Notes under the pieces: model-generated
Databases searched by the model: none
What the model was told of the DNA's origin: nothing
The model's input: only the letters and a program-made list of their open reading frames with translations
Part shown: one piece after another, positions 21,175 through 49,680 of the stretch
Position numbering within the stretch: the first letter of the stretch is position 1
Layout: each line of letters opens with the position of its first letter
NCBI GenBank assembly: GCA_914767715.1
Contig: OU612067.1
Coordinates: forward strand, 23,720,162 to 23,784,161
Reading direction: 5' to 3'
Source of the DNA: Membranipora membranacea
Taxonomy: Eukaryota; Bryozoa; Gymnolaemata; Cheilostomatida; Membraniporidae
Length of the DNA: 64,000 bases
Translations under genes and position numbers: made by a program

Positions 21175-22962
21175 TTAGCCGATTTTATTAATTACATCCT
21201 CATTCATCCATTGCCATGCAGCATCAGTTAGGAGCTTTCCTTCAACAGCAGTGGACCCCAAGCCGACGGCTGCTTTACAGGCTGCTATTTCTGCACATAA
21301 TTCAACAATGCTAGGAGGGGCTGCTGTAGGAATAAGGTCACGCTTTCCCCAGACTTTCTCCAATAGCCACATGCTGGCCTTCTTGGCAGCGGCATCACCG
21401 ATAAGTCCAGCTGCTCCCAGTCCGACGGCAGCTTTACAAGCCGTGATCTCTGAACACTTCTTTACGGCATCTACGATCAAGTTTCTTTTAGCATCTACCA
21501 AAAACAGAATAGTGTGATGATTGATTCTTTCTTGGATGAAAGTTCTGAATTAGGTATTGTTATCCCCCTCCCTGTTAGTCCCACCCCCTCCCCAACATCC
21601 ATCTTTAAAACAGAGGTGGAGCTGAACCTGAACCTGAAATGCACTAAAGATATAGCAGGCGTCAACTAGTCCAATGACTTGATATTATTCTGTGGTAAAT
21701 CGATTTTCAGCGACCCAGTATATATTCATATGTTTTGTCATAAAATGTGGAAAAAATGCTTACCTTTATTCGCTAAAACAATGAATGCTGAATCAACAAG
21801 GTCACGCTTTCCCCAGACCTTCTCTAACAGCCACATACTGGCCTTCTTGGCAGCGGCATCACCGATAAGTCCAGCTGCTCCCAGTCCGACGGCAGCTTTA
21901 CAAGCCGTGATCTCTGAACACTTCTTTACGGCATCTACGATCAAGTTTCTTTTAGCATCTACCAAAAACAGAATAGTGTGATGATTGATTCTTTCTTGGA
22001 TGAAAGTTCTGAATTAGGTATTGTTATCCCCCCTCCCTGTTAGTCCCACCCCCACTACATCCATCTTTAAAACAGAGGTAGAGCTGAACCTGAAATGCAC
22101 TAAAGATATTGCAGGCGTCAACTAGTTCAATGACTTGATATTATTCTGTGGTAAATCGATTTTCAGCGACCCAGTATATATTTATATGTTTTGTCATAAA
22201 ATGTGGAAAAAATTCTTACCTTTATTCGCTAAAACAATGGATGCTGAATCAACAAGGTCACGCTTTCCCCAGACCTTCTCTAACAGCCACATGCTGGCCT
22301 TCTTGGCAGCGGCATCACCGATAAGTCCAGCTGCTCCCAGTCCGACGGCAGCTTTACAAGCTGTGATCTCTGAACACTTCTTTACTGCATCTACGATCAA
22401 GTTTCTTTTAGCATCTACCAGAAACAGAATAGTGTGATGATTGATTCTTTCTTGGATGGAAGTTCTGAATTAGGTCTTGTTATCCCCCTCACCCACTCAA
22501 CATCCATCTTAGAAACATGAGCTAGAGCTGAATCTGAAATGCCCTAAAGATGTAGGAGGCGTTAACTGGGAAACTAACTCAATATTGTTTAGTGGTAAAT
22601 CGATTTTCAGCGACTCAGGGGGGTCTTTCAATTAAAATCAGCCAAAATCACAATCTGATCGCTCACTCACTGAGTGGGTGAGACATGCTAGGGGTCTCAC
22701 TTTCAGGTCGCTCACTCAATGATGGAACTTTATACACTCTGAGTGAGCGATATGGGATCGATTTTGTCTAATTGAAATACAAAGTGAGCGATAAATTTGA
22801 GCGATGTGATAGTGATAATTTGCATTATTAATTGAAAGACTCCCCTGTATATATTTATATGGTTTGTCATAAAACCTGGAAAAAATTCTTACCTTTATTC
22901 GCTAAAGAGGAGCACGAGGACACTGTTACGAAAGCAGCAAGAATAATTAACCCAACTCTCAT
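21175..22962 (-). CDS. Secreted multi-peptide precursor, gene E
   Basis: Four coding exons: 22893-22973 (ATG at 22962; signal peptide MRVGLIILAAFVTVSSC), 22220-22414, 21764-21958 and 21175-21494. All junctions are phase 1. The two middle exons are 195 bp and almost identical. Each encodes DAKR, a peptide from NLIVDAVKKCSEITACKAAV to LLEKVWG followed by KR, and a short spacer ending LANK. The last exon repeats that peptide and adds a divergent, more acidic one (DLIPTAAPPSIVELCAEIAA...) ending INKIG-stop. Lys-Arg with preceding Gly predicts convertase cleavage and Trp-amide ends; the terminal Gly predicts another amide. The Cys pairs are spaced by five residues. Function is unknown; a helical defence or signalling peptide is inferred. 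Confidence 0.85.
22618..22845. mobile_element. MITE inside intron 1 of gene E
   Basis: The ends GGGTCTTTCAATTAA and TTAATTGAAAGACTCCCC are inverted copies. The insert interrupts sequence that is continuous in the other two copies of this intron (near 21715 and 22170), which defines the insertion well. The interior repeats CGCTCACTCA-like blocks. Superfamily undetermined. Confidence 0.75.
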
Positions 22963-23084
22963 TATGGTGTGTACTGCAAATAGAAAGATGATAATTGTGA
23001 TATTATACAGTAAAAGTTGACAGTGATTAAAAAAAGGTTGATTAAAATGGATGTCGGATGTCTTATCACTCTCCACATCCCGAA

Positions 23085-23250
23085 GCATGGGCGGTGAAAT
23101 TGTAGGGCCTTAATGGCTAGGCCGCAATATCTGCGCCAATTTGCTCTCTGTTTCCAGGCAGGTCAGAGCACACCTGGGGGCCAACCACCCCAGTAGTCGA
23201 TGGAGTTCAGTGGGATTCGAACCCACAACCTTCAACATGTGCATGCTAAA
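23085..23250 (-). mobile_element. tRNA-derived SINE fragment
   Basis: On the minus strand GGTTCGAATCCCAC matches a pol III B box and T arm, followed by a non-tRNA body. No complete cloverleaf can be drawn, so a functional tRNA is unlikely. It lies in intron 1 of gene E, between the noncoding first exon and the signal-peptide exon. Confidence 0.5.
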
Positions 23251-23504
23251 ATGGTAAAATATACTTAGGCCAATTTAGTACATCAATTTATAAGGTTGTG
23301 AGTAAGAACATGGTGCTGGAGGGGAAGGAGGTTTAGATGTGATAAAAAAACTGATTTACAGGAACAACCGCGAATTTAAGGTGAAAAGAAACAAACAGCA
23401 AATTTAGACATAAAAATAATATTTTTATTTTGAGGCTCGTTTCTTAAAAGAATGTCATTCATTCAGTCTTTTGAGCCAACTTTCTAAAAAGAATTTGAAC
23501 TCAC

Positions 23505-23600
23505 CTGGTATTCTGCTTGTTGTCTGGAGAACCTCAAACCTGTTGTAGCTATAGCTTACTTAGGACAGCAAGTAGGTAGCATTGCTCTTTATATACGATA
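23505..23600 (-). promoter_or_regulatory. Gene E promoter and noncoding exon 1
   Basis: TATATAAA reads on the minus strand at 23588-23595. A donor CCAG|GTGAGTTC follows at 23505/23504, giving a short 5' UTR exon of about 60 bases. The signal-peptide exon has its own acceptor TTTGCAG ending at 22974. Confidence 0.65.
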
Positions 23601-24890: not shown

Positions 24891-25951
24891 TTATCCGGAT
24901 ATCTTGGCCCAATCCTTGTTGGGCAACTGCTTAACAGGCCCATGGCATTTTTGAGGGTTGGTAGCACAATATTTGGCAGCAGCGGCAGCAGCAGTGGAAA
25001 TAGCTCCTCTCTTTCCAAAGACCTTAGACCAATGAACTAAAGGTTTAGCAAGACGTGTAGGATGGGGATGGGCAGGTTTAGGGTGTCCGCATCCTAGTGG
25101 GCTGGCTGCACAAATCTTGAGATAATCTACAAGTGATTGGAGTAAACTGTTTATATCAGACAGATGCAATTGTATTCAGAGCTAATTGTTTTATTTTTGA
25201 TCACCCAGTCTCAGCTACTCCAATTTTCTCATTTGACATAAAATACCCCATCTATACACATTTCTAATTTGAAATAGGGCAATATATTACCCCCATTGTT
25301 ACTATGATGATAGATTAAGTAATTAAACAATACACAATTATGTAGGCTTTCCCCCAAAATTCCATAAAATCCCCTTGTGATTCCTATTTTGAGGGCTAAA
25401 CACAAATGTATAAATCTTCTAGCTTTAACACTATGAAATGAACATGTATTTTGACCCCGGGAATCGGGATACCCGACCACTAACCGTCGGGCAAAAGTCT
25501 TGGGGGCTCAGACTACCGACCACTCTGCGCATGTGCGAACTGTTGAGGCATAGGTTCGGGCTGAATAAATTCACCTAGACTGAGGACCTAAATTGGGAAA
25601 GCAATAGAAACCCATAACTTAGAAATAATTAGGCCTCAATGAAACAACGGATTTGGGGTCTCATAACCTTTAACTCTGGCAGTTGCCTTCCTGGATGGAA
25701 GGCAGCGCCACCATCCCTGTGCTACAGAGATAGACTATATCACGAGCTATCCGGCACGCAGAATGTATGGTACCCGACTATTTTAAAGTTCAAATGCATC
25801 AATTAATTTGTGTTGGAACTGTAGGAGGAATGAAGTCACCTTGGTGAAGAAGTGCCTAACTTAGTATAAGTCGTAGCCTACCTTGAAGCCTGTTGAAGCC
25901 GTTAGCATTGACCGCAGCCAGCATCAGCAGTAATATAGCTACAACCCTCAT
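24891..25951 (-). CDS. Two-peptide secreted precursor, gene C
   Basis: Exon 25882-25961 (ATG at 25951) encodes the signal peptide MRVVAILLLMLAAVNANG and ends in phase 1. Exon 24891-25126, after acceptor CTTGTAG, encodes two peptides. The first starts near YLKICAASPLGCGHPKPA and ends WSKVFG before KR; the second is GAISTAAAAAAKYCATNPQK... ending WAKISG-stop. Both have a Cys pair spaced by six residues and a Pro/His-containing middle, and both end in Gly, so amidation is predicted. There is no Lys-Arg before the first peptide, so the signal peptidase or another enzyme must set its N-terminus. AATAAA lies at 24838-24843. Function is inferred only from kinship with genes A, B, D and E. Confidence 0.82.
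25127..25881 (-). other. Gene C intron
   Basis: No exon is seen. The segment 25680-25745 (GCAGTTGCCTTCCTGGATGG...) has a diverged counterpart at 55550-55612, so a dispersed repeat is present. Confidence 0.5.
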
Positions 25952-26080
25952 CCTCAGTTCACTTTAATGGGATAAACATGAACGATAAATACAGTAAAAT
26001 GTTTTACTTTGAGTTCAAGTGACTTTGATGAATAAATGTCAGTTCAATGACACAATATACAATATACAGCATACAATATT

Positions 26081-26238
26081 ATACAGTATACAGTATACAG
26101 TATACAGTATACAGTATACAGTATACAGTATACAGTATACAGTATACAGTATACAGTATACAGTATACAGTATACAGTATACAGTATACAGTATACAGTA
26201 TACAGTATACAGTATACAGTATACAGTATACAGTATAC
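26081..26238. repeat. Heptanucleotide satellite, about 22 copies of ACAGTAT
   Basis: A nearly perfect 7-bp tandem repeat in intron 1 of gene C, between its promoter and signal-peptide exon. A 7-bp unit without stops opens reading frames on both strands; these are not genes. Confidence 0.95.
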
Positions 26239-26473
26239 AATAACAGTGCTCCTAGGGAAAAAAAGATATTTGATAATTAATCTTGTATCATTTCCTTTTA
26301 AAAATACCTTTCTTTTAGTCTTGTTTGTTTGGATATTCCTGTTGATATTTCGACTTTTGACCATTAACGTCAGAATATTGACCATTTCAAAGGTGGCAGT
26401 GAAGTAATTTGACATTTGAGATTCATAAAGATGATTGTAGCTTGACAATAAAAGTATATATCACATTACTGAC

Positions 26474-26600
26474 CTTGGAGTGACTTCAAGCTGATGAAAT
26501 TAAGACAAAACTGAACTCCGGTTTTGTGACTGACAGACTGTATAGTTGGCCTGCTAGGGTGGCTCTCTGCACCTGCGACTTCCCATAGCCAGATTCAATC
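26474..26600 (-). promoter_or_regulatory. Gene C promoter and probable noncoding exon 1
   Basis: The minus strand carries the cluster's upstream block (GGCTATGGGAAG, then AGCCACCCT) followed by a weak TATA-like ACTATACAG near 26538-26546 and CTGTCAGTCAC, which gene D shares. A candidate donor CCAAG|GTCAGT is at 26474/26473. The TATA is degenerate compared with genes A, B, D and E. Confidence 0.5.
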
Positions 26601-28107
26601 ATGCTAGGAGGTAATCTATTTCTTTGCAGGGTAGGGTACTAACTACTGAGATTGTGAAAACATTACAAAGGGGAGGGGGTCTGGGGGCTCAGACTAGCCT
26701 TTATTGTGTTTTGCTACCACTCTCGGCTGTATGTTGCTGATAAATTATTTAACTGTTTACAGATTTTACATTTACAGCCATTCAGCTCGAAAATTGAAAA
26801 CACAATGGTGCATCTGTCTTCTCCCGATACGTGGCATTGTTGTCATCTATACGTTTCATGTTGTTGACTTGTTGCTTGTTGGGCAGTCCCAAACTTTTAC
26901 GTTAATGTGTTTAAGAGTCCCAAACTTTGTCTGTTTTGTTATGTGTTATGTGTTATAAGTAGGCCTATCACATGATCGACAAAATATAGTCCATTTTGAT
27001 GGTTGCGATAAAAAACTTGATGCAGTAAAATAAATCCAGTAAGCTACCCTTATGGAGTAAATGTTAGCTAGAGTTTTTTTTTTCAATACTTTTATTGGCA
27101 TCATAAACATTTTTAAGAAAAGACAAAGCTTTTCGTTATGTGCCAAGAGGAAAAAGGAAAAACAAGGAATTTGTAAAGCTTTAGCTAGTTTTGGAGATGG
27201 CTTATTGTAAGCTATTACCAATTTCAGTTTCACTCACCTATTATGACCCCTCTAGGGTTTTTATAACCCGGTGAGACGTAAATGATGAAACGAGAATAAT
27301 ACAGAGAAGTGAGTTTAGACTGATGTAGTAAAGATAATCCTAAACTCGGGTTCACCGACTAGGAGTGTATTATGCTGACTGTTAGTGTTCACATGAGTCT
27401 TCCCATAAACACATTTGATCTTAGATAATGGGTACTTTTTACTTTGTGGGGAACTCAGACTTGGATTGTGTTACAGAGCTGCAGGCCTAAAGTGTCCTCT
27501 GTATAACTTATGAATTAGTTTTTTTTATTGAAAATATTCTGTAGATTCCTGTGAGGCTTGCATAGGATCAAGTTTGATCCAATCAAGCTACATTTCGGGT
27601 CTGTAGAGCGGCTGATGGCTCAAAAGGGGGCGGGAAACTCCAAATACAGATGAATTGGATCATAGTTGATTAAGGTTTGCAGGTCACCTAGTTTAAGTGC
27701 TCAAACCAATGAACTAAAAGGTTTAGTTCATTGCTTTTACAATAACCATGGTTAGTACACGAGTCAACTGGTAATGGTTGATGAAATTTGCTGCCAGTGC
27801 CACAGCTATAACAATCTCACTAAGCAAAGTAAGTTTTCTTATAGCAGCCTCTCTATGATTTAATTAGTGACTACCACAAAATAAAAAGCAAACAAATAAA
27901 TGCTCTTGGATAGAGTGTTTTGGTTGCAGCCACTGTGCCAACATAGTTGTATAACAAATTATATATGTCAGCTGTTTCTTCATTCGTAATTGTAGCCGTT
28001 CATTGTAAGAAAAGGGAATGTTATTGAATAGTAAGACATGTATCAAGTTCTGGTAAAGCTCAGGTTGGGTCAAAGGAATATTATGGTAATTTTTGCACCC
28101 TATTGAG
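26600..28107. other. Intergenic DNA between genes C and D
   Basis: No gene is recognised. A perfect 12-bp-stem hairpin (CAATGAACTAAA, 3-base loop) lies at 27707-27733. Confidence 0.5.
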
Positions 28108-28152
28108 GCGGTAACTGTTAATTTCTGAACATGCTGAACAGACTGAACAGCT
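28108..28152. mobile_element. Solo terminal repeat of the 28321-28874 element family
   Basis: GCGGTAACTGTTAATTTCTG followed by CTGAACAG-type repeats matches the terminus of the neighbouring 554-bp element. No opposite end is visible. Confidence 0.6.
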
Positions 28153-28291
28153 GAATAGCACAGGTGAAAATTGAACACGGTCTTGTAAATAACAGATCTA
28201 AACTAGGACAATGATTCAGGTAAGGTATTGGTCATGTGGCACACAATCAACTGCGTCAAATAATAGCGGTAGATTTAAACCATTAAACCAA

Positions 28292-28297: not shown

Positions 28298-28320
28298 GAT
28301 TAAAATTGGAAAGATTTTCA

Positions 28321-28874
28321 GGGTAACTGTAAATTGCTGAACAGGCTGAACAGACTGAACAGCTGAACAGAATTTCTCAGACTACTATTTGTTTGATTCT
28401 TTACATGATTGGCTAATTTTGCATAAGCGTGGACAATTCTTTATATTCTTCTCATTAAATTATTTATTTTAAGTTTGCATTCACCTTGGTTTCTTTCAAT
28501 TTTATGCACAGCAAATTTTTTGGCATTACACGACTAGTGAATGGATGGAAAATAGCCCCCCCCCCCTATAAACAAAGCTTGTTAAGACTGGCTAGATGGA
28601 AGGTTGAGCTGGCTAATGTTTCTGGTATCCAATTTCCAGAACACCATCAGATTTTGTCATAATTGGCACATTGATTGCTTCATTTGCTTGCCCTAAATTG
28701 GTTATATTAGGTGCCAACAGGAACTTAGTGACTCATCAAATCATTTGGTTAGGAGGAATGTGTCTGACAAGCGATAGTCAGCCAGAGAAATGATAACAAA
28801 TAATAATTTTAGTCTGAGAAATTCTGTTCAGCTGTTCAGTCCGTTCAGCCTGTTCAGCAATTTACAGTTACCGC
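28321..28874. mobile_element. Non-autonomous DNA transposon with 8-bp TSD (hAT-like)
   Basis: Long inverted termini of about 58 bp (GGTAACTGTAAATTGCTGAA..., built from CTGAACAG-like 9-mers) flank a non-coding core. An exact 8-bp duplication GATTTTCA lies at 28313-28320 and 28875-28882. Eight-bp duplications are typical of hAT and P superfamilies. It is inserted between the stop codon of gene D and its likely poly(A) signal. Confidence 0.85.
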
Positions 28875-28931: not shown

Positions 28932-29459
28932 CTAATGTCTGATAAACCCTGGTTTGACAGGCTGACGAGGTGCGCTGCATATGTGTGGATTAGCAGCACA
29001 ATACTTTTTTGCTTTCTCTAGTGCGGCATCAAATACGCCTCTCTTTCCAAAGATCTTTGACCAAGCCTCATTGCCGATTGGTTGAAGAGGTTTAGACCTA
29101 GGCCCAGTACATATGTGTGGGTTGGCAGCACAGAGCTTGGCAGCTTTTGCGGCAGCAATAGGGATGGCACTTCTTTTTCCTAAATATTTATATATCTATG
29201 GTTACAATGATGAATAAACTGGTATTTGACCTTCAAATAAGTAAAAACAATACAATATATACACCAATCTATCACTTTTAACGCATATGTTGGTTCAACA
29301 GGTAGATAGTCAAATTAAGGCAATTCATTCGGGTTGGGAATATGTGGTTGGAGAAAGGTCACCTTGACAAAGTTAACATTGTTTTCTACCTTCGAAGCTG
29401 ATGATACCATTGACAGTGACCGCAGCTAGTGTCACAAGAAGAATAGCTACAACCTTCAT
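28932..29459 (-). CDS. Two-peptide secreted precursor, gene D
   Basis: Exon 29390-29469 (ATG at 29459) encodes the signal peptide MKVVAILLVTLAAVTVNG and ends in phase 1. Exon 28932-29179 follows acceptor ATATTTAG and completes GKR at the junction. Peptide 1 starts SAIPIAAAKAAKLCAANPHI and ends WSKIFG-KR, so a Phe-amide is predicted. Peptide 2 starts GVFDAALEKAKKYCAANPHI and ends GFIRH-stop, without the amidation Gly. Both share CAANPHIC (six-residue Cys spacing) followed by a Pro-rich stretch. No propeptide exon was found between signal and peptides. Gene C is its closest relative in the window. Confidence 0.83.
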
Positions 29460-29959
29460 CTTCAACTCACTGTAATGGAATAAACGTAGTACATTAAAGA
29501 AATACAGAAATACAGAAAAACAAACATCTTTTGTATCCAAATGACTTTGATGAATAGACATGGACATACATTTTGGGTATATGTCTACCATTAAAAACTT
29601 TGGACTCGTGTAATTTCGTCAAAATTGGATGAAATGAGATGAAATCTAACGCAGCTCATGACATCATAGAGATTAATCCAAAGCAAAAAATTGAAGGAGA
29701 TAAACGCATATTTCGTTGGGGAAAAAGTTGGTTTCACTTTAATAGTTCCATATACAAAAAATATCGAATATCGGTTGAAAACCCTGCTGTGACCTCACAC
29801 CCAGGCTTTCCGATTTCACCAGCAATTATTGAATGGGCCGACTTCAATGCCTTATAGCAAAACTTGTAGTGGTCCGACAAGGTCAATCTTGATTTGAAGC
29901 TGATTAGCTGGCGAAACAGCTTTGATAATCCCAATCTTCACTTCATGGATGCTTTAACT

Positions 29960-30150
29960 CTGGTTCAGTGACTGACAGTCTTTATAGCTGGCTACTATAT
30001 ATAGCCAGGTTAGGGTAGCTATCTGCACCTGGGACTTCTCATAGCTTCATTTAATCAAAGTAATGCTAATGGGCACACCTTTTCTTAGCACGGTACGATT
30101 ACTTGGAAAGTTTTCATTAGCTGCAGGCCTAATTGAGCTACAGACCTTCC
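29960..30150 (-). promoter_or_regulatory. Gene D promoter
   Basis: TATAAAG reads on the minus strand at 29980-29986, with a second TATATATAG about 15 bases upstream. The upstream block CAGGTGCAGATAGC and the CTGTCAGTCAC downstream of TATA match gene C. The exon 1 donor was not located. Confidence 0.55.
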
Positions 30151-30497: not shown

Positions 30498-30499
30498 GA

Positions 30500-32792: not shown

Positions 32793-35644
32793 TTAACCAA
32801 AGATCTTATTCCATACGTTCTTAGCACCTTCAGCAACAGCCTTAGCTCCGCTTACAACAGCACCTCTGCATGTGGAGTTAGCAGCGCATGCCTTGGCAGC
32901 AGCAATAGCGGCACCAGTGACGGCGACTCTCTTTCCGAAGAGCTTGTTCCAGGCACTTTGCACAGCTCCGGCAAGCTTCTTAGCACCACTCTTGACAGCA
33001 TTTCTGCATGAAGCACTGGCAGCACAGGAAGCAGCGGCCTTGGCAGCAGCGGCAGCAGCAGCGGAAGCGGTGATGACAACTCTCTTTCCGAAAAGCTTGT
33101 TCCAGGCACTTTGAACAGCACCGGCAAGCTTCTTAGCACCACTCTTGACAGCATTTCTGCATGAAGCACTGGCAGCACAGGAAGCAGCGGCCTTGGCAGC
33201 AGCGGCAGCAGCAGCAGAAGCGGTGATGACAACTCTCTTTCCGAAAAGCTTTTTCCAGGCACTTTCCACAGCACCGGCAAGCTTCTTAGCACCGCTCTTG
33301 ACAGCATCTCTGCATGAAGCACTAGCAGCACAGGAAGCAGCGGCCTTGGCAGCAGCGGCAGCAGCAGCAGAAGCGGTGATGACAACTCTCTTTCCGAAGA
33401 GCTTGTTCCAGGCACTTTGCACAGCGCCGGCAAGCTTCTTAGCACCACTCTTGACAGCATTTCTGCATGAAGCACTGGCAGCACAGGAAGCAGCGGCCTT
33501 GGCAGCAGCGGCAGCAGCAGCGGAAGCGGTGATGACAACTCTCTTTCCGAAAAGCTTGTTCCAGGCACTTTGCACAGCGCCGGCAAGCTTCTTAGCACCG
33601 CTCTTGACAGCATTTCTGCATGAAGCACTGGCAGCACAGGAAGCAGCGGCCTTGGCAGCAGCGGCAGCAGCAGCGGAAGCGGTGATGACAACTCTCTTTC
33701 CGAAAATCTTGCCAAAGAACTTCTTAGCACCTTCAGCAACAGCCTTAGCTCCGCTTACAACAGCACCTCTGCATGTTGAGCTAGCAGCGCAAGCCTTGGC
33801 ACCAGCAATGACAGCTCCGGTGACAGCAACTCTCTTTCCAAAAAGCTTGTTCCAGGCAGACTTTACACCATCAGCAAGCTTCTTAGCACCGCTGGTAACA
33901 GCGTCCCTGCATGAGGCACTAGCAGCACAGGAAGCAGCAGCCTTAGCAGCAGCGGCAGCAGCAGCAGAAGCGGTGATGACGATTCTCTTTCCGAAGAGCT
34001 TGTTCCAGGCAGACTGCACAGCGCCGGCAAGCTTCTTAGCACCGGTCTTGACAGCGTCTCTGCATGAGGCACTAGCAGCACATGATGCAGCGGCCTTGGC
34101 AGCAGCGGCAGCAGCGGCGGAAGCGGTGATGACGATTCTCTTTCCAAAGATTTTGTTCCAGGCTGATTTTACACCATCAGCAAGCTTCTTGGCACCACTT
34201 TTGACAGCCTCTCTGCATGAAGCACTAGCAGCACAGGAAGCAGCGGCCTTGGCGGCAGCGGCAGCAGCAGCGGAAGCAGTGATGACGATTCTCTTTCCAA
34301 AGAGCTTTTTCCAGGCAGTTTGCACAGCGCCGGCAAGCTTCTTGGCACCACTCTTGACAGCTTCTCTGCATGAAGAACTAGCAGCACAGGAAGCAGCGGC
34401 CTTGGCAGCAGCTGCAGCTGCGGCGGAAGCAGTGATGACAACTCTCTTACCGAAAATCTTGCCAAAGAGCTTCTTAGCACCATCAGCAACAGCCTTAGCT
34501 CCGCTTACAACAGCACCTCTGCATGTGGAACTAGCAGCGCAAGCCTTGGCACCAGCAATGACGGCACCAGTGACAGCGACTCTCTTTCCAAAAAGCTTGT
34601 TCCAGGCAGACTTTACACCATCGGCAAGCTTCTTAGCACCGCTCTTGACAGCGTCTCTGCATGAAGCACTAGCAGCACAGGAAGCAGCAGCCTTGGCAGC
34701 AGCGGCAGCAGCAGCAGAAGCAGTGATGACGATTCTCTTTCCAAAGAGCTTGTTCCAGGCAGACTTTACACCATCGGCGAGCTTCTTGGCACCGCTCTTG
34801 ACAGCGTCTCTGCATGAGGCACTAGCAGCACATGATGCAGCGGCCTTGGCAGCAGCGGCAGCAGCAGCAGAAGCAGTGATGACGATTCTCTTTCCGAAAA
34901 GCTTGTTCCAGGCAGACTTTACACCATCGGCGAGCTTCTTAGCACCACTCTTGACAGCATCTCTGCATGAAGCACTAGCAGCACATGATGCAGCGGCCTT
35001 GGCAGCAGCGGCAGCAGCAGCAGAAGCAGTGATAACAATTCTCTTTCCGAAGAGCTTGTTCCAGGCAGACTTTACACCATCGGCAAGCTTCTTAGCACCG
35101 CTCTTGACAGCGTCTCTGCATGAAGCACTAGCAGCACAGGAAGCAGCAGCCTTGGCTGCAGCGGCAGCAGCAGCAGAAGCAGTGATGACGATTCTCTTTC
35201 CAAAGAGCTTGTTCCAGGCAGACTTTACACCATCGGCGAGCTTCTTTGCACCGCTCTTGACAGCGTCTCTGCATGAGGCACTAGCAGCACATGATGCAGC
35301 GGCCTTGGCAGCAGCGGCAGCAGCAGCAGAAGCAGTGATGACGATTCTCTTTCCGAAAAGCTTGTTCCAGGCAGACTTTACACCATCGGCGAGCTTCTTA
35401 GCACCACTCTTGACAGCATCTCTGCATGAAGTACTTGCAGCACAGGAAGCAGCGGCCTTGGCGGCAGCGGCAGCAGCAGCAGAAGCTGTGATGACGATTC
35501 TCTTTCCAAATATCTTGTTCCATACCTTCTTAGCACCATCAGCAACAGCCTTAGCTCCGCTTACAACAGCACCTCTGCATGTGGAGCTAGCAGCGCAAGC
35601 CTTGGCACCAGCAACAATGGCACCGGTGACAGCGACTCTCTTTT
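32793..35644 (-). repeat. Coding tandem array: 153-bp and 138-bp units (gene A)
   Basis: Fifteen 153-bp units and four 138-bp units lie head to tail without spacers. The block order and the local sharing of variants (LADGVKS in the first block, LAGAVQS with VVITAS in the last) show local duplication and homogenisation. The array is much more GC-rich than its flanks. Long antisense frames arise only from the repeat's codon composition. Confidence 0.95.
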
Positions 35645-36700
35645 CTGAAATCAAATAAAAATATGTCCTTCAGAATATTTCATAAGCTCACATGCTATGC
35701 ACGAAATAAGTCTAATTATAACACTTTTGTGATCAACTCTTTTCTATTTCATAGACATGTCCATTAGCTGAGGCACAGACATACTTCCTTGCTCCAAAAT
35801 TGCTGATTGTCAACAATAGCTCATATCCAAGTCCATATTGATGGGTTAATTCCTTGTCATGCCATGTCGTGCCGAATTTTAGCTCAGTTTTTGGCTATTG
35901 GAAATTAACTGCTGCACTTTTTTTGAGCTTTATCTGAACAATCTAAATCACTTATTATTATTCTCTTTTAATAGAAATTACCCTCAGTTTCATTCAGAAT
36001 ATTGTCGACGGTTGTGTGAACGGCCTGTCTGCACTGATCGTTCTGGGCACAGCTTCTGATGAGTCTCAAAACACCATCCTTCATGTCCTCTACTCCCTCA
36101 TCTAATGTATCGCGAGCACCATCTACAAAAGATATCGGTTGATAAAATTCCTGTCAAACATTTTTCACTTATTGTAAACATGATCTTTGGTAGTACGTAG
36201 GTACACTGAACAGAAATAATGAAGTGTATTTTAATTAACAAAACGTAAAGTTAAACAACGGTGGTGAAAGGTAATAATACTTTGGATCACACAAATTGTC
36301 TATTCGATTCAGTAGTTTTAACTTGAACAATTTTGAATTTCAGAGTTTATCTTAATGAGGGATTTTTAATTATTGTCACATTTCATTGTAACAATGTGGT
36401 ATCAATTTGTAAATGACCAGTACTTGAGAGTAAACAAAATTATATGATGAAGCAGCTCTTTATCCTTTATTCGATGGAAGCTGGAAGTAAATGCCATTAC
36501 CAAAATAAAAGAATCAATTCGGATGAGAAGTGTAGGCAGAAAGAGGTAACCTTGATCAAGAAATTCAATGATTAAATTATGAAAAGTTCTAGCCTACCTT
36601 TAAGAAGGTTGAACACGTTAGAAATGTCAGTTTCTGCGCTCTGCAAGAAGTTAGCATTGACAGCGGCCAGGGCCAGTACTAGAATAGCTACAACCTTCAT
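32793..36700 (-). CDS. 19-copy amidated helical peptide precursor, gene A
   Basis: Three coding exons, all joined in phase 1: 36598-36710 (ATG at 36700, MKVVAILVLALAAVNA signal peptide plus start of a propeptide), 35982-36122 (47-residue acidic propeptide from DGARDTLDEG to NETE) and 32793-35644 (peptide array opening with EKR). The array holds 19 peptides separated only by Lys-Arg: four 44-residue peptides (VAVTGA...C-x5-C...NKIFG) and fifteen 49-residue peptides (IVITAS, seven Ala, Lys, then C-x5-C and a Lys-rich half ending AWNKLFG). The order is 1+6+1+4+1+5+1. Each Gly precedes Lys-Arg or the stop, so all 19 should be amidated. The mature peptides are strongly cationic with one Cys pair each. 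Antimicrobial, cytolytic or signalling roles are inferred, not shown. Confidence 0.9.
35982..36122 (-). CDS. Propeptide exon of gene A, with a buried Cys-x5-Cys unit
   Basis: A 141-bp symmetrical phase-1 exon. Its second half (LRLIRSCAQNDQCRQAVHTT) has the same S-C-x5-C-R-x-A-V pattern as the 49-residue mature peptides (SCAASASCRDAV), but no Lys-Arg bounds it. The acidic first half could balance the charge of the cationic array. Confidence 0.8.
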
Positions 36701-37175
36701 CCTCAGGCCACTACAATGGGAAAGGCGCCGTACAATATATGAAATATGAATTATTCGTACTTATAAAAAGTGCTTTTTGTAAAGTAAACATGAATGATTA
36801 GATTTACAGTGCATGTTAGCAGAGCTGTGTATGCAGAAAGAAATACACCGGGTTTTAAATCGTTAATTTTTTCTAAATGATAACAGATTCCAAACTCATG
36901 CACACTGCCCAAGTGCTAGTTGGCAGGCTTTGCTTGGAATCCTATCTACTATTTTGTCCATGCTATGGTTGAACACGAAGAAATTGTCTCAATAATTTTT
37001 TATCTTGCGAAATCGTCGAGATTTATCATAAAATTACTGATATTTCCAAACTCATCTCTTATCAAATTTGTGAACGAAAATGAAATAAAGCTCTTGTTGT
37101 TATTGATGACTGACAGTAGATAAAATCCAGAATTTATATCCAGCTGTGGTATAATGGTGGAATGAGAGTACTCAC

Positions 37176-37400
37176 CGTTGTGTGTCTTTAGTAATGAAGT
37201 CGAGACGAATCTGAACTCTTGTTCACTGGGGAGCAGTTTATATAGCCAGCTCCCATGGTGGCTTAGTGCACATGGGCCTTCCCATAGCCATATTAGATCT
37301 ATGATTATATGTTATCTTCTTCTTTGCAGGTTACTATGCTTTCAATGTATCGCGTAGCTGAAAGCCTAGATCTTCCTCCGGAACTAATGCATTTTTATTC
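37176..37400 (-). promoter_or_regulatory. Gene A promoter and noncoding exon 1
   Basis: TATATAAA at 37237-37244 (minus), with GGCTATGGGAAGGCC and CATGTGCAC upstream and a distal block ATGCATTAGTTCCGGAGG near 37377-37395 containing an ETS-like TTCCGG. A donor ACAACG|GTGAGTAC is at 37176/37175; it splices to the acceptor CCATTGTAG ending at 36711. The arrangement matches gene B and the orphan copy near 44.1 kb. Confidence 0.7.
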
Positions 37401-39769: not shown

Positions 39770-42700
39770 AAAAAAAAAAAAAAAAAAAGAAAGAAAGAGA
39801 CTACACTGTCATTGGTCGCATTTTATTGCCATTTTGCTATGTACTATTCAGCCTATTTAAAGTTGGATTCATATACTTATAAACACGCTGTTTGAAAGAA
39901 TAGCGTTTGACATCAGTGTTGATAGTGCCTTTGATGGCGCCTATCCTTGTGTGATGATGGGAATGTGACACAGTGACCATTTCCTCATTAACTGCAGCTG
40001 TACCGGTGATGATTTTAAAATATAACTTTAAGTCAGCACCCTTCCTTCTTTCAAACAATGTTTGCCATCCGACTTCAGTCATATGGGCACTGATATGGTC
40101 ACTACGTCTTTTTTGATATGCCCACCTAAAGGCTTTTCTGTTTATGGCCTCCATGACATCTATATGCTTACCCAAATGAGGAGACCAACCATGAGAGGCA
40201 TACTCTAAGATTGGTCTGCAAATAGTTTTAAATGATACTGTTTTAGTCTTAGTTTTAGCTTTTTTTAAGTTACGCATAAGCATATGAAGCGTTCTTGTGG
40301 CTTTCTTGCAAATCTCTCTGATGTGCTTGTCAAAAGAGAGGTGTGCATCTATGTGCACACCTAGGTATTTTACAGAAGAGACGTGTGATAATTGGGTAGC
40401 ATTTAAGTTGTAGGTTTGGGAAGGATTTATGATGCTGGCCTGTGCCTGCCTCTCGACTCTCATAAATTCACACTTTGAGACGTTAAAGCACATCTGCCAG
40501 GTGTCGGCCCATTTTGCAAGGTTATCAAGATCAGACTGTAAGTCGATTTCATCCGCTTGTGATTTGATTCGATGATATACCAGAGAGTCATCAGCAAAAA
40601 GTCTTAAGGTGGAGTTATTAATGCAGGACGGCATATCATTGATAAAAATGAGGAAAAGAAGAGGTCCAAGTACACTACCCTGGGGCACTCCTGAGGTTAC
40701 ATTGTGATGTGAGGATTTTGTACCATTCACAGTCACAGAGAGTGTACGTTTGGACAACCAGCCTGATATCCAGTCACATGTTATAGGATGCACACCTATC
40801 GCCTTAAGCTTTAAAGCTAGCTTCCTGTGTGAGACAACATCAAAAGCTTTAGAAAAATCAAGTACAGCAAGGTCGGTAGGGACATTTAGATCATATGAGT
40901 CCACAAGTTCTGAGATTGTTGTTAAAAGTTGAGTGTCGCAACCGTGCCTTTTTCTGAAACCGTGCTGGCAGTCTGAAAGCAAGTGGTTGGTGTCCAAAAA
41001 GTTGTTGATGTCATGGCAAATTATATGTTCTAATACCTTAGATGCAATACAAGTCATGGATATTGGGCGGTAATTGAGAGGTGCTGTTCTGGAATCCTTT
41101 TTGTGAATAGGTATTACGTTAGCCCGTCTCCAGTCATCTGGAACCAGACCCGAATCAAACGAGTATTGAAATATCATTGCTAAAAATTTATAAATATAAT
41201 TTGCTAGGAATTTTAAGAGTGCAGAGGAAAGGCCATCAGGCCCAGCGCCTTTGGTCCTGTCTAGGGTCTCAAGTTGTCTTAGTACCCCTCTTGGTTCAAT
41301 GGTAATTTTAGTAGTCTGTTTTGCGATGTTGTCAATCGTTGGTGGGCATCTACCATCATCGACCGTGAATACTGAACTAAATGAGGAGGCAAAACATTCG
41401 GCAAGCTCTGCTGGTGAGTTTTCACTACAGCCATCAAGTTTTTTAATAGTATTGTTATTACCACGGCGATTTGCTATAAATTTGAAAAGAGGTTTTGTAT
41501 CGCCATTTTCTAGCCTATCACAAATGTGTCTATTTAAGAATAAGTTGTAGTCTCTATTCATGAGAGTATTGCACAATTTGGATTGAGCAGCTAGTTTGTC
41601 CCTGTTTTCTTTGGTGTTATAGATGATGCTAGTTTTATGCCACCTTTTTCGACGGGCAATCTCTCTCTTCGTTGCCATCGATAGCCAAGGGCCTGAGTTG
41701 GTTTTCCTAGTACGACTAGGAATATTTGCACTAGCGGTGCGGTGGATACAATTTTTAAAAGTTTCCCATACCCTGTTCACTGGGGCTTTGTTTTCAATAA
41801 GTTGGCATACATCTTTCTCAAGATCAAAGCAGTCTACCATGATGTCTGGGATATTTGCTTTTTTGAATATATAAAATGGGATGGTGTTATTATTCTCATT
41901 TGTATGGGAAACAGGGTCTTCTGAGAAAAGATCAAAGAGTATTATATCGTGGTCAGAACAACTTGGTTGGCTCGTTGGAGTGGAGAGGTCAAGGTTTGAA
42001 AGGACAAGATCGAGAGTATTGCCATGCCGATGTGTTGGGAATTTGACATGCTGCTGTAAGTCAGTGGAATCTGTGAAGGTCAGAAATGATTCATGCATAT
42101 GGATGTCTTGCCTTTTTTTTAAATTACATGTAGTCCAATCTATATCAGGTAAGTTGAAATCGCCAACAATGACTTGTCTGCACGATGATTCATTTTTGCA
42201 CCATGTGATGAAGTCATCAACATTCCTAACTGAAGGCCTATGGTAGTATACCGTAAGATCGAATGAAAAGCCGCCAACACTAGCAACAATTGATAACAAT
42301 TCACCTGTTTCTGCAGGTAAGACTTGGGTGACAACAATGTTTGAGGAGTCAAGAACGCCAATTAGCACACCACCTCCACGTCCTACAGAACCTGTGCGGT
42401 CTAACCTATAGAGAGTGTAATTTATACATACTTCTTTATCAGTAATACATGGGATCAATTTGGTTTCAGTTAGTGCAAAGATATCAGGTTTGTGCTGGTT
42501 TAGGGCAACTTCCAGTTGATGACTCTTTCCACTGATACCATTGCAATTCCAGTTCATTATTTTAATTGAGTGCTTGTTATTCATTATCTGCCTTCTTCCA
42601 ACCTAAGTAGTCAGAAAATATGTATTTATATCAGTTATTAGGATGATTCACTTTGAACAGTGGCATTCTTTGCAGCTGTAGTTATTGGTTCACCATTATT

Positions 42701-43080: not shown

Positions 43081-43132
43081 TAGTCTGTCTTGCTAAGCTT
43101 TGTTGTGGAACAAAGCTTGTCAAGACAGGCTA
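43081..43132. repeat. Short foldback element
   Basis: TAGTCTGTCTTG and AAGCTTTGTT pair with AACAAAGCTT and CAAGACAGGCTA around a four-base loop. TATCCC flanks both sides, a possible target duplication. It shares the CAAGACAGGCTAGC end with elements at 10.5 and 59.85 kb. Confidence 0.65.
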
Positions 43133-43649: not shown

Positions 43650-43709
43650 CTAGCCGATGTGTTGGCTCTAATTGGTGGGTGGGGAGAAGACACCCAACAC
43701 ATTGGCTAG
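43650..43709. repeat. Short foldback element
   Basis: CTAGCCGATGTGTTGG pairs with the inverted CCAACACATTGGCTAG (one mismatch) around a GC-rich centre. Confidence 0.6.
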
Positions 43710-43849
43710 TATTTTGCCCATGTCAAGTATCAAACACCAAAACCATTCATATAACACAACTCAATTGCCAAATTGACCTTATACAAAATTTACAGTCTGT
43801 TATTCATTCCCCTGACGTTTGTGGCATTTAGACCTGCGGTATTCCTAGT

Positions 43850-44290
43850 ATTAATATCAGTCAGGGTTATAAGACTACCCCGTCCCCTCTATATGAATCA
43901 AAATTCAATATTGGCTAAAAGTGACACTAGAAGATAACTCTTACAGCCAATGCCACATGCGCTGGTCAATGTAGGCACCAGGTGACCATACAGATGGATT
44001 TGGAATTCTGAGCCATAACTTTGTTAAGTTCAGCTCCTACACCAGAGCAGAACATGCGCATAATGAACCAGTTATGTGTCGTTTGTGATGATGTCGAGAC
44101 GAATCAAATTTCAGGGCCCCTGTCGGGCAGTTTATATAGCTGGCTTCAATGGTGGCTATGTGAACATAAGCCCATCATAGCCTTATAAAAACATACATAT
44201 TGGTTTAAGGCTACAAAATTACATATCTGCGGACCTATTATCTCCGCCGGAACTGATGCATTTACGAATTATCCCTCGTAGCTCGAAGAT
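43850..44290 (-). pseudogene. Orphan copy of the peptide-gene promoter and exon 1
   Basis: This block aligns with 49180-49680 upstream of gene B, including TATATAAA at 44131-44138 and the distal CAGTTCCGGCGG. The donor equivalent to ACAACG|GTGAGTAC has become ATAACTGGTTCATT, so the splice site looks lost. No signal-peptide exon follows; downstream lie a LINE, the 38880-39240 duplicate and a MITE. It looks like the remnant of a sixth gene. Confidence 0.7.
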
Positions 44291-44408
44291 GACAGTCATG
44301 TCAACAACTTTCAATGTCCCAAAATTGGACATTATTGAACAAAAATTATGCTTGTGTAGTTTAGACTATTCAAGTCAAAAAAAATCACGATGGACAGGTA
44401 ATTTGAAG

Positions 44409-44822: not shown

Positions 44823-45022
44823 ATTTGAAGAACCTATATTAATCTCTGCTGTAATTATGAACAATAAATACTGTTCAAACCAGCCCATGGGTGTCCAATG
44901 ACTGCCTCATGAATTCAACAACAAAAGAATCTGCTGCTTTGATGATAAAGTGATGAAGACCTATTACAAGCAAGCAGTCATATAGCATAGAAACAGCAGA
45001 CAAATATAAATTAGTTCACCAA

Positions 45023-45028
45023 TTTATT
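45023..45028 (-). terminator. Poly(A) signal of gene B
   Basis: AATAAA in the context GATCAATAAATTGGTGAA, about 53 bases past the stop, matching gene A. Confidence 0.65.
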
Positions 45029-45080
45029 GATCAAAGTAAAAAATGTATAACAATAATGCAAATATTGTTGAGTAGGTCAC

Positions 45081-47305
45081 TTAACCAAAGATCTTGTTCC
45101 AGACATTCTTAGCACCTTCAGCAACAGCCTTAGCTCCGCTTACAACAGCACCTCTGCATGTGGCATTTGCAGCACAAGCCTTGGCACCAGCAATGACAGC
45201 TCCTGTGACAGCAACTCTCTTTCCAAAAAGCTTGTTCCAGGCAGATTTTACACCATCAGCAAGCTTCTTAGCACCACTGGTAACAGCATTTCTGCATGAA
45301 GCACTAGCAGCACAGGAAGCAGCAGCCTTGGCAGCTGCTGCAGCAGCAGCAGAAGCAGTGATGACAACTCTCTTTCCAAAGAGCTTGTTCCAGGCAGATG
45401 CAACACCATCAGCAAGCTTCTTAGCACCATTAGTGACAGCATCTCTGCATGAAGCACTAGCAGCACAGGAAGCAGCGGCCTTGGCAGCGGCGGCAGCAGC
45501 AGCAGAAGCGGTGATGACGATTCTCTTTCCGAAAAGCTTGTTCCAGGCTGATTTTACACCATCGGCAAGCTTCTTAGCACCACTGGTGACAGCATCTCTG
45601 CATGAGGCACTAGCAGCACAGGAAGCAGCGGCCTTGGCAGCAGCGGCAGCAGCAGCAGAAGCTGTGATGACAACTCTCTTTCCGAAGAGCTTGTTCCAGG
45701 CAGATGAAACACCATCGGCAAGCTTCTTAGCACCACTGGTGACAGCATCTCTGCATGAGGCACTAGCAGCACAGGAAGCAGCGGCCTTGGCAGCAGCGGC
45801 AGCAGCAGCAGAAGCTGTGATGACAACTCTCTTTCCGAAGAGCTTGTTCCAGGCAGATGAAACACCATCGGCAAGCTTCTTAGCACCACTGGTGACAGCA
45901 TCTCTGCATGAGGCACTAGCAGCACAGGAAGCAGCGGCCTTGGCAGCAGCGGCAGCAGCAGCAGAAGCTGTGATGACGACTCTCTTTCCGAAGAGCTTGT
46001 TCCAGGCAGATGCAACACCATCGGCAAGCTTCTTAGCACCATTGGTGACAGCATCTCTGCATGAAGCACTAGCAGCACAGGAAGCAGCAGCCTTGGCAGC
46101 GGCAGCAGCAGCAGCAGAAGCAGTGATAACGACTCTCTTTCCGAAGAGCTTGTTCCAAACGTTCTTAGCACCTTCAGCAACAGCCTTAGCTCCGCTTACA
46201 ACAGCACCTCTGCATGTGGAGCTAGCAGCGCAAGCCTTGGCACCAGCAATGACAGCTCCGGTGACAGCAACTCTCTTTCCAAAAAGCTTGTTCCAGGCAG
46301 ACTTTACACCATCAGCAAGCTTCTTAGCACCACTGGTAACAGCATCTCTGCATGAAGCACTAGCAGCACAGGAAGCAGCGGCCTTGGCAGCAGCGGCAGC
46401 AGCAGCAGAAGCGGTGATGACAATTCTCTTTCCGAAGAGCTTGTTCCAGGCAGACTTTACACCATCGGCAAGCTTCTTAGCACCATTAGTGACAGCATCT
46501 CTGCATGAGGCACTAGCAGCACAGGAAGCAGCGGCCTTGGCAGCAGCAGCAGCAGCAGCAGAAGCAGTGATAACAATTCTCTTTCCGAAGAGCTTGTTCC
46601 AGGCAGACTTGACACCATCGGCAAGCTTCTTAGCACCACTGGTGACAGCATCTCTGCATGAAGCACTAGCAGCACAGGAAGCTGCAGCCTTGGCAGCGGC
46701 GGCAGCAGCAGCAGATGCAGTGATGACGATTCTCTTTCCGAAGAGTTTGTTCCATACGTTCTTAGCACCTTCAGCAACAGCCTTAGCTCCGCTTACAACA
46801 GCACCTCTGCATGTGGAGCTAGCAGCGCAAGCCTTGGCACCAGCAATGACAGCTCCGGTGACTGCAACTCTCTTTCCAAAAAGCTTGTTCCACGCAGATT
46901 TTACACCATCAGCAAGCTTCTTAGCACCACTGGTAACAGCATCTCTGCATGAAGCACTAGCAGCACAGGAAGCTGCAGCCTTGGCAGCGGCGGCAGCAGC
47001 AGCAGATGCAGTGATGACGATTCTCTTTCCAAAGAGTTTGTTCCATACGTTCTTAGCACCTTCAGCAACAGCCTTAGCTCCGCTTACAACAGCACCTCTG
47101 CATGTGGAGCTAGCAGCGCAAGCCTTGGCACCAGCAATGACAGCACCGGTGACGGCGACTCTCTTTCCAAAGATCTTGTTCCATACGTTCTTAGCACCCT
47201 CAGCAACAGCCTTAGCTCCGCTTACAACAACACCTCTGCATGTGGAGCTGGCAGCACAAGCCTTGGCACCAGCAATGACAGCACCGGTGACGGCGACTCT
47301 CTTAT
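45081..47305 (-). repeat. Coding tandem array: 153-bp and 138-bp units (gene B)
   Basis: Ten 153-bp and five 138-bp units without spacers. Variant residues cluster by position (VSSAWN in two adjacent units, TNG in alternating ones), as expected from local unit duplication. Confidence 0.95.
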
Positions 47306-48762
47306 CTGCAATCAAATATTAATATGATCATCCCATTAAATAATTGACAAACAAACATGTTATCCAAGCAAGAACCTCATGGCACTTTAAGGTAAAGTGA
47401 GGTGAGGATAGTTTGGGTAATTTAAAAAACGCATCACTATGAAGTGGATAAAGTGTTTACAGATTTCTGCATGTAGTTGAATCGTACCCAGACTTTGCTA
47501 AATATTCGATCAATCTTAATCATATCAATATGCTTGATCACTATTCTCATCTAAACAAATTTACCTTCGGTATCATCATCCAGCATGTTGTTGACGGCTG
47601 TGAAAACTGCCTGTCTACACTGATCATTCTGGGCACAGCTTCTTATGATTCTCAAAACACCATCCTTCATACCTTCTACTCCCTCATCAACATGTTCTAC
47701 ATTGTCATCTAATAAAAAGAATATTTCAGACTGAATACCTAAGATCACTTCTTGTTTTACACTCTTGCGTATTTACAGTACAATAATCTTGAAAATAACC
47801 AAGGGTTGCTTACATAAATAATTTTTCTACTGTATTTTAGTAAAAAGGGAAGAGAAAAATTATCTCTTAGAAGTGCATATAAGTAAAGTGTAGTGAAATA
47901 TAAGTGGTCACAGGTTTTTATCTTTTACTCCTTGGTTTTATCCTAGGAGAATAATTGATTCAAGGACCTTAGTTGTTTTATATCAAAACACATACCTACC
48001 CCTGGACAATAAAGCCAGCTGAATTTGTTGATCATATCTAATGAAGCATTCCAAGCAAGTGTGGTTGAAATTCATTTTGTTGATAATGTGGGAACGATTA
48101 TCCTAATTGATTTAAATGTCTTCATCAGAAGGAAGAGATTTATGTCATCATACCAATTCATGAGAATAATTCAGTTTCTAAATATGAAAAATAATAATCA
48201 AATAATTGGTATTAATTATTAATACTAAAATATTAATTAATTGCCTGCAGTTATAAACACTCACCAACTAGTTCCTTGAGTTCTTCTAATTTATCACGAG
48301 CACCATCTTTAAAACAAATAACAGTCAACAGTGTATACCAGTTAAGTACAATAGTATTGAAACATTTTTCTTTGATTATAGTTCCTTTGATTTTGGTGTA
48401 TTGATTTTCAGCACATATTTATCTCATTATAATATGATTATTAGCCAAATCATTACATTTATTGGTTCACTGGTGAAAAATTAAAAAAAAAATCTAGATA
48501 GGCCATTCATCCCTTTTCCATGAATACAATACATAAATGGTGAAAGGTAAAAAATATCCAGTATACAGATATTCATCAGGACAAGAAGTGCAGGTGTAGA
48601 CAAGAACAGTTAGTTTTATCAGGAAATTAATTTTAAAGTTTACAAAAGTTCTAACCTACCTTTGAGATGATCGAACACGTCAGAAAGCTCAGCTTCTGCG
48701 TTCTGCAAGAAGTTAGCATTGACAGCGACCAGCGCCAGCACTAGAATAGCTACAACCTTCAT
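45081..48762 (-). CDS. 15-copy amidated helical peptide precursor, gene B
   Basis: Four coding exons in phase 1: 48660-48772 (ATG at 48762, signal peptide MKVVAILVLALVAVNA), a 42-bp exon 48265-48306 (DGARDKLEELKELV), the propeptide exon 47565-47708 (from DDNVEHVDEG, with SCAQNDQC) and the array 45081-47305 (opens DKR). The array holds five 44-residue and ten 49-residue peptides in the order 2+1+1+3+1+6+1, the first, third, fifth and seventh runs being the 44-residue type. All end in Gly before Lys-Arg or stop. The 49-residue units read DAVT-S/N-G where gene A mostly reads DAVKSG, so each array has been homogenised separately. It has an extra mini-exon relative to gene A. The paralogy is certain; the biological activity is inferred. 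Confidence 0.9.
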
Positions 48763-49422
48763 CTTAAGTTCACTTCAATGAGAAAGGCACAAATATAATA
48801 AATTCTATTTATAATACTTTTCCAACTTTAGAGTGTTGTTGTAGGTTTAAGGAAGATGAATAAATTGCGGGCGAATAAAATTGTTGAAAACGCTGGATAT
48901 TCAATATTCAAAAATTTTTTTTATTAATTTTTGCAATGGAATACATTTTCCCACTGGTGATGGAAACACATTTAAAAATTTATGTATTCAAAGTAGATTT
49001 TGTTATTATTTCCACTATGAAAAGTAGTAATAATGTAAAATTGATAAGAGCCAGCCAAGAGGTTTGTTCCAGAATTATACTATCCAAGTCCATACTGACA
49101 CTCGTGATCTTAAGCGGACAGATCACTGATAAAATAGGCTAAAATTACCACAAATTGGTTATCGAAGTCCTAAAGATACTATCAGTCAGGGTTATGAGAC
49201 CTCCCCCCTCCCCTATATGAATCGATAATCGATTATGAATATTGACTAAAAGTGACACTAGAAGATATCTCTTACAGCCGATTCTACATGCGTTTGGTCA
49301 ATGTAGGCTCCGGAAGCAGGTGCCCAAACAGATGGCTTCAGAAATCTGAGACGAAACTTTTTGGAAAGTTCTGCTCATGCCCGAGAGCTGAGCATGCGCA
49401 GAATAATCCGGAGAGTACTCAC

Positions 49423-49680
49423 CGTTGTGTCGTTTGCAATGAAGTCGAGACGAATCTAATTTCTGGGTCCCTGGTAGGGAGTTTATATAGCTGGCTTCAA
49501 TGGCGGCCGTGTGAACATGGGCCCCCACTTAGCCTTATTACAACGGTTTGCAGCAGTATGAGAAACAGGGCCCGTGTTCATACTCACCTCTGACAATATT
49601 TGTTTTAACGGGTCACTAAGGCTATGATGTTACATAACAGGGGCCCATCAATCACCGCCGGAACTGATGCATGTATGTAT
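49423..49680 (-). promoter_or_regulatory. Gene B promoter and noncoding exon 1
   Basis: TATATAAA at 49482-49489 (minus); distal ATGCATCAGTTCCGGCGG near 49652-49669 with an ETS-like core; exon 1 donor ACAACG|GTGAGTAC at 49423/49422. The signal exon acceptor is CATTGAAG ending at 48773. Confidence 0.7.

Follow-up and report, generated by a model that had tools for sequence, protein, structure and literature searches.

A stretch of contig C3 of the bryozoan Membranipora membranacea (23720162-23784161; 64,000 nt, hereafter the window, to whose positions the gene coordinates below refer) carries five minus-strand genes that had been singled out, from the letters of the DNA alone, as a cluster for multi-copy, amidated, Cys-pair helical peptides. 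The questions raised by this locus are whether these genes belong to a real family and what their secreted products would do. Our analysis indicates that the five genes (A to E) and a sixth on chromosome 11 (gene F) are, as predicted from their sequences, a bryozoan family of secreted peptide precursors, and we would put at roughly even odds (a probability of about 0.5) that the peptides function as secreted, membrane-active defence peptides.

Organization of the gene cluster

All five peptide-precursor genes of the original prediction were found, which confirms it on this point, and together they encode 42 Cys-pair peptides:

48762-45081, minus strand: gene A, 837 residues, 15 Cys-pair peptides
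36700-32793, minus strand: gene B, 1031 residues, 19 Cys-pair peptides
29459-28932, minus strand: gene C, 105 residues, 2 Cys-pair peptides
25951-24891, minus strand: gene D, 101 residues, 2 Cys-pair peptides
22962-21175, minus strand: gene E, 259 residues, 4 Cys-pair peptides

By inspection, the signal peptide lies on an N-terminal exon of its own in genes A-E and in gene F, and in A and B this exon also carries the start of the pro-region. Genes A and B thereafter encode an acidic pro-region, which has a Cys-x5-Cys of its own, and a last exon that holds all the peptides. Gene E, whose signal peptide begins MRVGLI, has a peptide-and-linker exon that is repeated, followed by a fourth, different peptide, and its precursor would also yield two 15-residue linkers without Cys. 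The coding exons are as follows:

48660..48762, minus strand: gene A coding exon 1, signal peptide MKVVAILVLALVAVNA and pro-region start
48265..48306, minus strand: gene A coding exon 2, pro-region; GT-AG, phase 1
47565..47708, minus strand: gene A coding exon 3, acidic pro-region including Cys-x5-Cys
45081..47305, minus strand: gene A last exon, 10 long (48 residues) and 5 short (43) peptides, Gly after each
36598..36700, minus strand: gene B coding exon 1, signal peptide and pro-region start
35982..36122, minus strand: gene B coding exon 2, acidic pro-region including Cys-x5-Cys
32793..35644, minus strand: gene B last exon, 15 long and 4 short peptides, Gly after each
29390..29459, minus strand: gene C coding exon 1, signal peptide
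28932..29179, minus strand: gene C coding exon 2, two Cys-x6-Cys peptides, of which the first ends in WSKIF-Gly and the second lacks Gly
25882..25951, minus strand: gene D coding exon 1, signal peptide
24891..25126, minus strand: gene D coding exon 2, two Cys-x6-Cys peptides
22893..22962, minus strand: gene E coding exon 1, signal peptide
22220..22414, minus strand: gene E exon 2, peptide copy 1 and linker
21764..21958, minus strand: gene E exon 3, peptide copy 2 and linker
21175..21494, minus strand: gene E exon 4, peptide copy 3 and the last Cys-pair peptide, which is net-acidic

The phase-1 junctions first noticed in the sequence recur throughout, all ten coding introns of A-E being GT-AG and phase 1, and the predicted Cys pair of each peptide is spaced either as Cys-x5-Cys (38 of 42 peptides; A, B and E) or as Cys-x6-Cys (four of 42; C and D). 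Gly, which had been reported at nearly every peptide end, precedes Lys-Arg or the stop in 41 of the 42, the sole exception being the second peptide of C; Gly-Lys-Arg is retained in 32 of 32 internal units of A and B, and Gly precedes the stop in both genes. The description of the peptides as bounded by Lys-Arg holds in general and fails for the first peptide of gene D, which directly follows the signal peptide with no Lys-Arg upstream.

Relatives in the genome and elsewhere

Searches of the M. membranacea genome covered 339,339,785 bases in 18 contigs, and their match counts are lower bounds. An A/B unit gave at least 34 matches at E 0.001 and a gene E unit at least four at E 1, all in the window. 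With gene C as the query at least ten matches were obtained at E 1, comprising C, D, seven weak ones in A/B and one on chromosome 11 (E 0.008), where gene F lies at C11:11289659-11290768 on the plus strand:

C11:11289659-11289728, plus strand: gene F signal exon, starting MRVLALLLLALAAVNA..., a related signal peptide
C11:11290557-11290768, plus strand: gene F unit exon, two Cys-pair peptides, preceded by a phase-1 GT-AG intron

The TGA in the chromosome-11 match is gene F's own stop, with an AATAAA about 70 bases 3' of it. In the first peptide of F the spacing is Cys-x8-Cys, and Gly-Lys-Arg closes the unit without an aromatic end; the second is a Cys-x6-Cys peptide whose WSKIF-Gly-Lys-Asn terminus, directly before the stop, makes its amidation less certain. 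In the 20 kilobases on either side of the window there were no more family members at E 0.1, and further dispersed genes may exist. The five genes do stand together, as had been claimed, and the family extends beyond the cluster to chromosome 11.

For relatives in other organisms, 5.8 billion proteins were searched with the first 390 residues of A, scoring the 7,992 candidates that shared most words with it; this search is limited to word-sharing relatives of 0.55-1.75 times the query length, and those of other lengths can be missed. The sole match was an uncharacterized protein of Watersipora subatra, another cheilostome bryozoan and the only named relative found (P0001, 679 residues, E 5.3e-112), with 40% identity over 83% of the 390-residue query and its parts in the same order. 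Like A and B, it has a signal peptide (MKVLALLL...), an acidic pro-region with Cys-x5-Cys, and Lys-Arg-bounded Cys-x5-Cys units that end W-x-K-(I/L)-F-Gly; unlike them, it has fewer units, some of which are longer (50 and 54 residues), and a lower charge. Two of its units lack Gly-Lys-Arg and continue into either a second copy of the pro-region or a low-complexity tail; this could be genuine or an error in the gene model. A match of PF10346 to P0001 was judged to look spurious. Gene E had one protein match, a 145-residue ENA contig protein (E 4.3e-10, 67% identity over 18% of the query) that shares Gly-Lys-Arg-Asp-Leu with it, and genes C and D had no relatives in the protein database at E 0.01. 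The original prediction had spoken of a species- or clade-specific family; the Watersipora homologue removes the first option and the second stands so far.

Predicted mature peptides and their processing

In the usual unit an Ala-rich segment is followed by a Cys ring, then by a second segment and a presumably amidated end of the form W-x-K-(I/L/V)-F. When 16 units from A-E, Watersipora and the ENA contig protein were aligned, the two Cys and the final Gly alone were invariant, and a Lys three residues before the Gly was present in at least 90%. The W-x-K-(I/L/V)-F sequence precedes Gly in 34 of the 42 window peptides, being present in 32 of the 34 A/B units (two B units have Phe instead of Trp), in one of two peptides in each of C and D, and in none of the four of E. 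Mature A and B units carry a charge of +4 to +7 (N-terminus counted, amide assumed), and the pro-regions, after presumed signal cleavage, carry -14 (A) and -8 (B). Computed monoisotopic masses of the oxidised, amidated peptides are, for example, 4100.18, 4588.44, 4529.41 and 4609.50 Da.

An AlphaFold model of a unit has helices at residues 2-15 and 18-43 that meet at the ring, with moderate confidence (best predicted local distance difference test score, pLDDT, 68, other models 59-68; predicted template modelling score 0.31), and a Foldseek search with this model gave no match. Amphipathicity was compared with that of shuffled sequences for 16 segments of eight peptides (p uncorrected), and the segment after the ring was more amphipathic than the shuffles in five A, B and Watersipora peptides (p 0.001, 0.019, 0.031, 0.043 and 0.084). 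For the word 'helical' in the earlier description the basis is this moderate-confidence model (pLDDT 68), and only units of A, B and Watersipora showed amphipathicity. With the Cys pair as anchor, a resemblance between pro-regions and units was seen in 12 comparisons (p 0.0006-0.028, uncorrected); it is suggestive only, and the acidic pro-region may be a diverged unit.

Precursors of this layout are processed in animals by signal peptidase, proprotein convertase, carboxypeptidase and the amidating enzyme PAM in turn. Signal peptidase would thus remove the signal peptide, the convertase would cut past Lys-Arg with trimming by the carboxypeptidase, PAM would turn the terminal Gly into an amide, and the two Cys of each unit would close one ring. 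The expected products, about 35-55 residues long, would begin with an Ala-rich or hydrophobic segment that leads into a Cys ring of 7 or 8 residues, and would continue with a second segment and, usually, the aromatic amide end. A copper-monooxygenase model gave 22 exon-level matches in the genome, two of which, PHM exons at C3:3206044 and C2:33086410, matched structures of PAM (1.8e-9 and 1.2e-8) rather than of dopamine beta-hydroxylase (DBH; only about 0.5). Several of the others look, by eye, like MOXD/DBH, and for this reason only the two exons checked against the PDB were counted as PAM. Their presence makes amidation plausible; the processing layout is as originally described, and its interpretation is supported by a genome that encodes the amidating enzyme. 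A further observation concerns C4:13623487-13684220, where four copper-monooxygenase places with eight matches lie in a row; five of the eight cross a stop codon, perhaps into introns, and the one place examined has a MOXD/DBH look.

Coding constraint and evolution of the repeats

The 34 units of A and B are of two types, long and short. Among the 25 long units the mean proportion of silent differences (pS) is 0.262 and that of replacement differences (pN) 0.044 (300 pairs), and the variable columns of 51 number 6, 6 and 34 at codon positions 1, 2 and 3, respectively. For seven short units the variable columns of 46 number 5, 3 and 18; this count excludes the two short units at the array ends, which have no Lys-Arg. 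The three gene E repeats differ by silent changes only (40 codons compared). Variation that is biased in this way to the third position of the proposed frame shows purifying selection on the peptides.

By mean DNA distance, each of the ten long units of A is nearer to the A units than to those of B. Of the 25 long units, 24 have their single nearest neighbour within their own gene (for two of them in a tie with the other gene), a pattern that fits an array undergoing homogenisation. The nearest relative of long unit B12 is an A unit, a likeness that hints at gene conversion. The 958-residue repeat reading frame also drew high-scoring Pfam rows (e.g., DUF5612, 2.8e-15), in which no single stretch was over the threshold and which in our reading are artefacts of composition.

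Possible functions of the peptides

Defence is favoured by the charge of the peptides, the acidic pro-region, the high dose per transcript and the clustered genes that are turning over. In the mechanism that we propose, the peptides of A and B would be stored in secretory cells, where the acidic pro-region would neutralise part of their charge, and would be released as cationic, membrane-active defence peptides, the many copies per precursor raising the dose. A promoter module common to members of the cluster, the relics and the single dispersed copy give the family the look of effectors prone to turnover.

Similar arrangements have been described for other membrane-active peptides. The cytolytic cupiennins of Cupiennius spiders (PMC7889660) have an anionic propeptide before multiple cationic, membrane-active peptides on one precursor, as do A and B; the cupiennins are linear and separated by anionic linkers, whereas the A and B units are Cys-paired and linker-free, and only E has short acidic linkers. 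Nicomicins and the frog Rana-box peptides (PMC6265681) share with the present family a cationic character, a helix with one small disulfide loop and an acidic pro-region. Their loop is C-terminal and their amphipathic helix N-terminal, whereas the present units, which come in many copies, have an internal ring with the amphipathic part after it. In the abstracts of the bryozoan papers surveyed, chemical defence takes the form of small-molecule metabolites and symbiont products.

Several of our results weigh against a defensive role. The units are under purifying, not diversifying, selection, and their conserved W-x-K-(I/L/V)-F-amide end looks, from its sequence, like a receptor-binding motif. 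The charge of the five distinct, intact, amidated units of Watersipora is only +2 to +4, and that of the last E peptide is -3. In the shuffle test, significant amphipathicity was seen neither in the first segment of any of the eight peptides nor in the second segments of C, D and E. Only nine of the 15 long units of B are, by mean DNA distance, nearer to the B units than to those of A. The low Watersipora charge and the non-amphipathic C, D and E segments argue against a single membrane-lytic role, and the family may do more than one job.

Nearly as possible as defence, and a serious candidate although we would bet somewhat against it, is a lineage-specific peptide hormone or neuropeptide, in which the ring and helix would present the aromatic amide end to a G-protein-coupled receptor, perhaps in the manner of calcitonin, CGRP or adrenomedullin and without homology to them. 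The prohormone layout, the Gly for amidation, the Cys ring followed by a predicted helix and the purifying selection would all fit such a role, as would the W-x-K-(I/L/V)-F end, which besides the A/B units is found in the intact Watersipora units and in a single peptide of C, of D and of F. That common end is, however, missing from the E peptides and from the other peptide in each of C, D and F, the alignment shows no invariant residue inside the Cys pair, and units of 35-54 residues in up to 19 copies per precursor are unusual for hormones of this size. The calcitonin/CGRP family, with amylin and adrenomedullin, has its Cys ring at the very N-terminus and resembles the present one in its small ring, subsequent helix and amidated end. 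Membership of it was rejected, as six units and one pro-region piece gave no match to a Pfam hormone family and the ring is internal, with 9-18 residues before the first Cys (aligned A-E and Watersipora units, the partial ENA protein set aside); the tens of copies are a further difference. For amylin, PMC6265681 does name the same plan of a disulfide loop followed by a helix. On the other side, the family is not among the 11 precursors, including insulin-like, pedal, vasopressin-like, glycoprotein hormone and NPF, in the available part of a Bugula neritina neuropeptide survey (PMC4990251).

Comparison with known families tells against a described hormone as well, since six units and a 49-residue stretch from the pro-region of gene A, scanned against Pfam with E values of up to 10 allowed, gave nothing above the cut-off and two weak matches below it, neither to a hormone family. 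The same pro-region stretch gave no Pfam match to BRICHOS, a further difference from the nicomicins. No match above the cut-off was obtained with five units in NCBIfam, or with one unit and a 16-unit profile against PDB sequences (best E 0.68 and 4.3), and a known Pfam, NCBIfam or PDB family for single units was accordingly rejected. In the parts accessible, the term 'bryozoa' is absent from a spiralian neuropeptide survey (PMC8557429) and 'peptide' from the Flustra genome paper (PMC13326412), and the family is undescribed in the literature titles and abstracts searched, a coverage outside which most subscription papers and bioRxiv fall. We rate multi-copy amidated peptide precursors as familiar, and the present scaffold and family as not.

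It is improbable that the genes supply bulk secreted material, such as mucus, adhesive or a coat of egg or cuticle, with cutting serving only to secrete an Ala-rich polymer; the repeats of A and B are indeed Ala-rich and closely similar, but Gly-Lys-Arg is kept in every internal A/B unit, with Gly before both stops, and the paired Cys and the aromatic end recur in the two-copy genes C, D and F. A non-functional GC-rich satellite repeat is hardly credible: open frames of 745-958 codons do occur on both strands of the arrays (those of the other strand, 847 and 745 residues long, we take as by-products of the GC-rich repeat), but such an artefact is refuted by the bias in codon position, by the homologue in another bryozoan and by gene F, which is unlinked, is spliced in the same way and has a promoter of related sequence.

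Within the defence reading, a more specific and rather doubtful version is a bryozoan-specific arsenal with a new ring-and-helix amidated scaffold, made as polyproteins of up to 19 copies in which the pro-region would be a diverged unit acting as a built-in neutraliser until cleavage. A conserved multi-copy amidated family would give bryozoans a peptide toolkit of their own, for surface cleaning or signalling.

Promoters, relics and neighbouring sequences

Promoter regions upstream of the genes, and two relics, were recognized:

49412..49560, minus strand: gene A promoter and inferred non-coding first exon with 5' splice donor; TATA at 49489; 78% identity to the gene B promoter
37165..37315, minus strand: gene B promoter and inferred non-coding first exon; TATA at 37244
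29900..30062, minus strand: gene C promoter region, with a TATA box; homologous to the D promoter region
26450..26615, minus strand: gene D promoter region, without a consensus TATA at the aligned place
43852..44324, minus strand: relic 1, gene A-type promoter and 5' region; TATA at 44138; splice donor lost; 70-76% identity to 49177-49737
27309..27429, minus strand: relic 2, promoter-like; 66-67% identity to B and gene F (E 4e-7 and 2e-7)

The non-coding first exon of A and B is inferred from the conserved donor. The promoters of B, C, D and F have in common the element CTATG(G/A)GAAG...CA(T/G)GTG, which in B and C lies about 20-40 bases 5' of the TATA box, and after it (G/C)TGAAC..GAGTT, which is less well matched in D. 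In A and relic 1 a weaker form persists. The pattern GRGAAGKSSCAKGTGYA, allowing at most one mismatch, occurs three times in the window (B, C and D) against 0.03 expected, a count that shows its rarity and not its independence, as the pattern was derived from the same promoters. The gene F promoter aligns with those of B and D. Gene E has its own TATA box at 23595, upstream of the signal exon, and its promoter aligns poorly with the others of the family. An AATAAA lies 48-94 bases past the stop in A (45028), B (32742), D (24843) and E (21081), and 464 and 635 bases past it in C.

In a self-comparison of the window no family exon was matched between relic 1 and the gene B promoter, and relic 2 has no family gene of its own before the gene D promoter. 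The cluster has evidently gained and lost copies. Relic 1 stands upstream of a same-strand reading frame of the long interspersed nuclear element (LINE) type within the cluster (39837-42602, minus strand), which is open over 921 residues with endonuclease and reverse transcriptase.

Other repeats were also seen. A 7-base tandem repeat, ACAGTAT, of about 28 copies (26052-26247) separates the gene D promoter from its signal exon, and 3' of the gene C stop there are short stretches rich in CTGAACAG (28108-28158, 28322-28384 and 28810-28874), 90-98% identical, which occur both direct and inverted. Three neighbouring open reading frames have PET and LIM domains, which we take to be Prickle-like, and another has a histone deacetylase domain. 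A weak Rfam match to transfer RNA (tRNA; 55062-55135, plus strand, 32 bits), not called by ARAGORN, is possibly a tRNA-derived repeat, and an almost perfect (99%) self-complementary stretch of 95 bases occupies 59886-59980.

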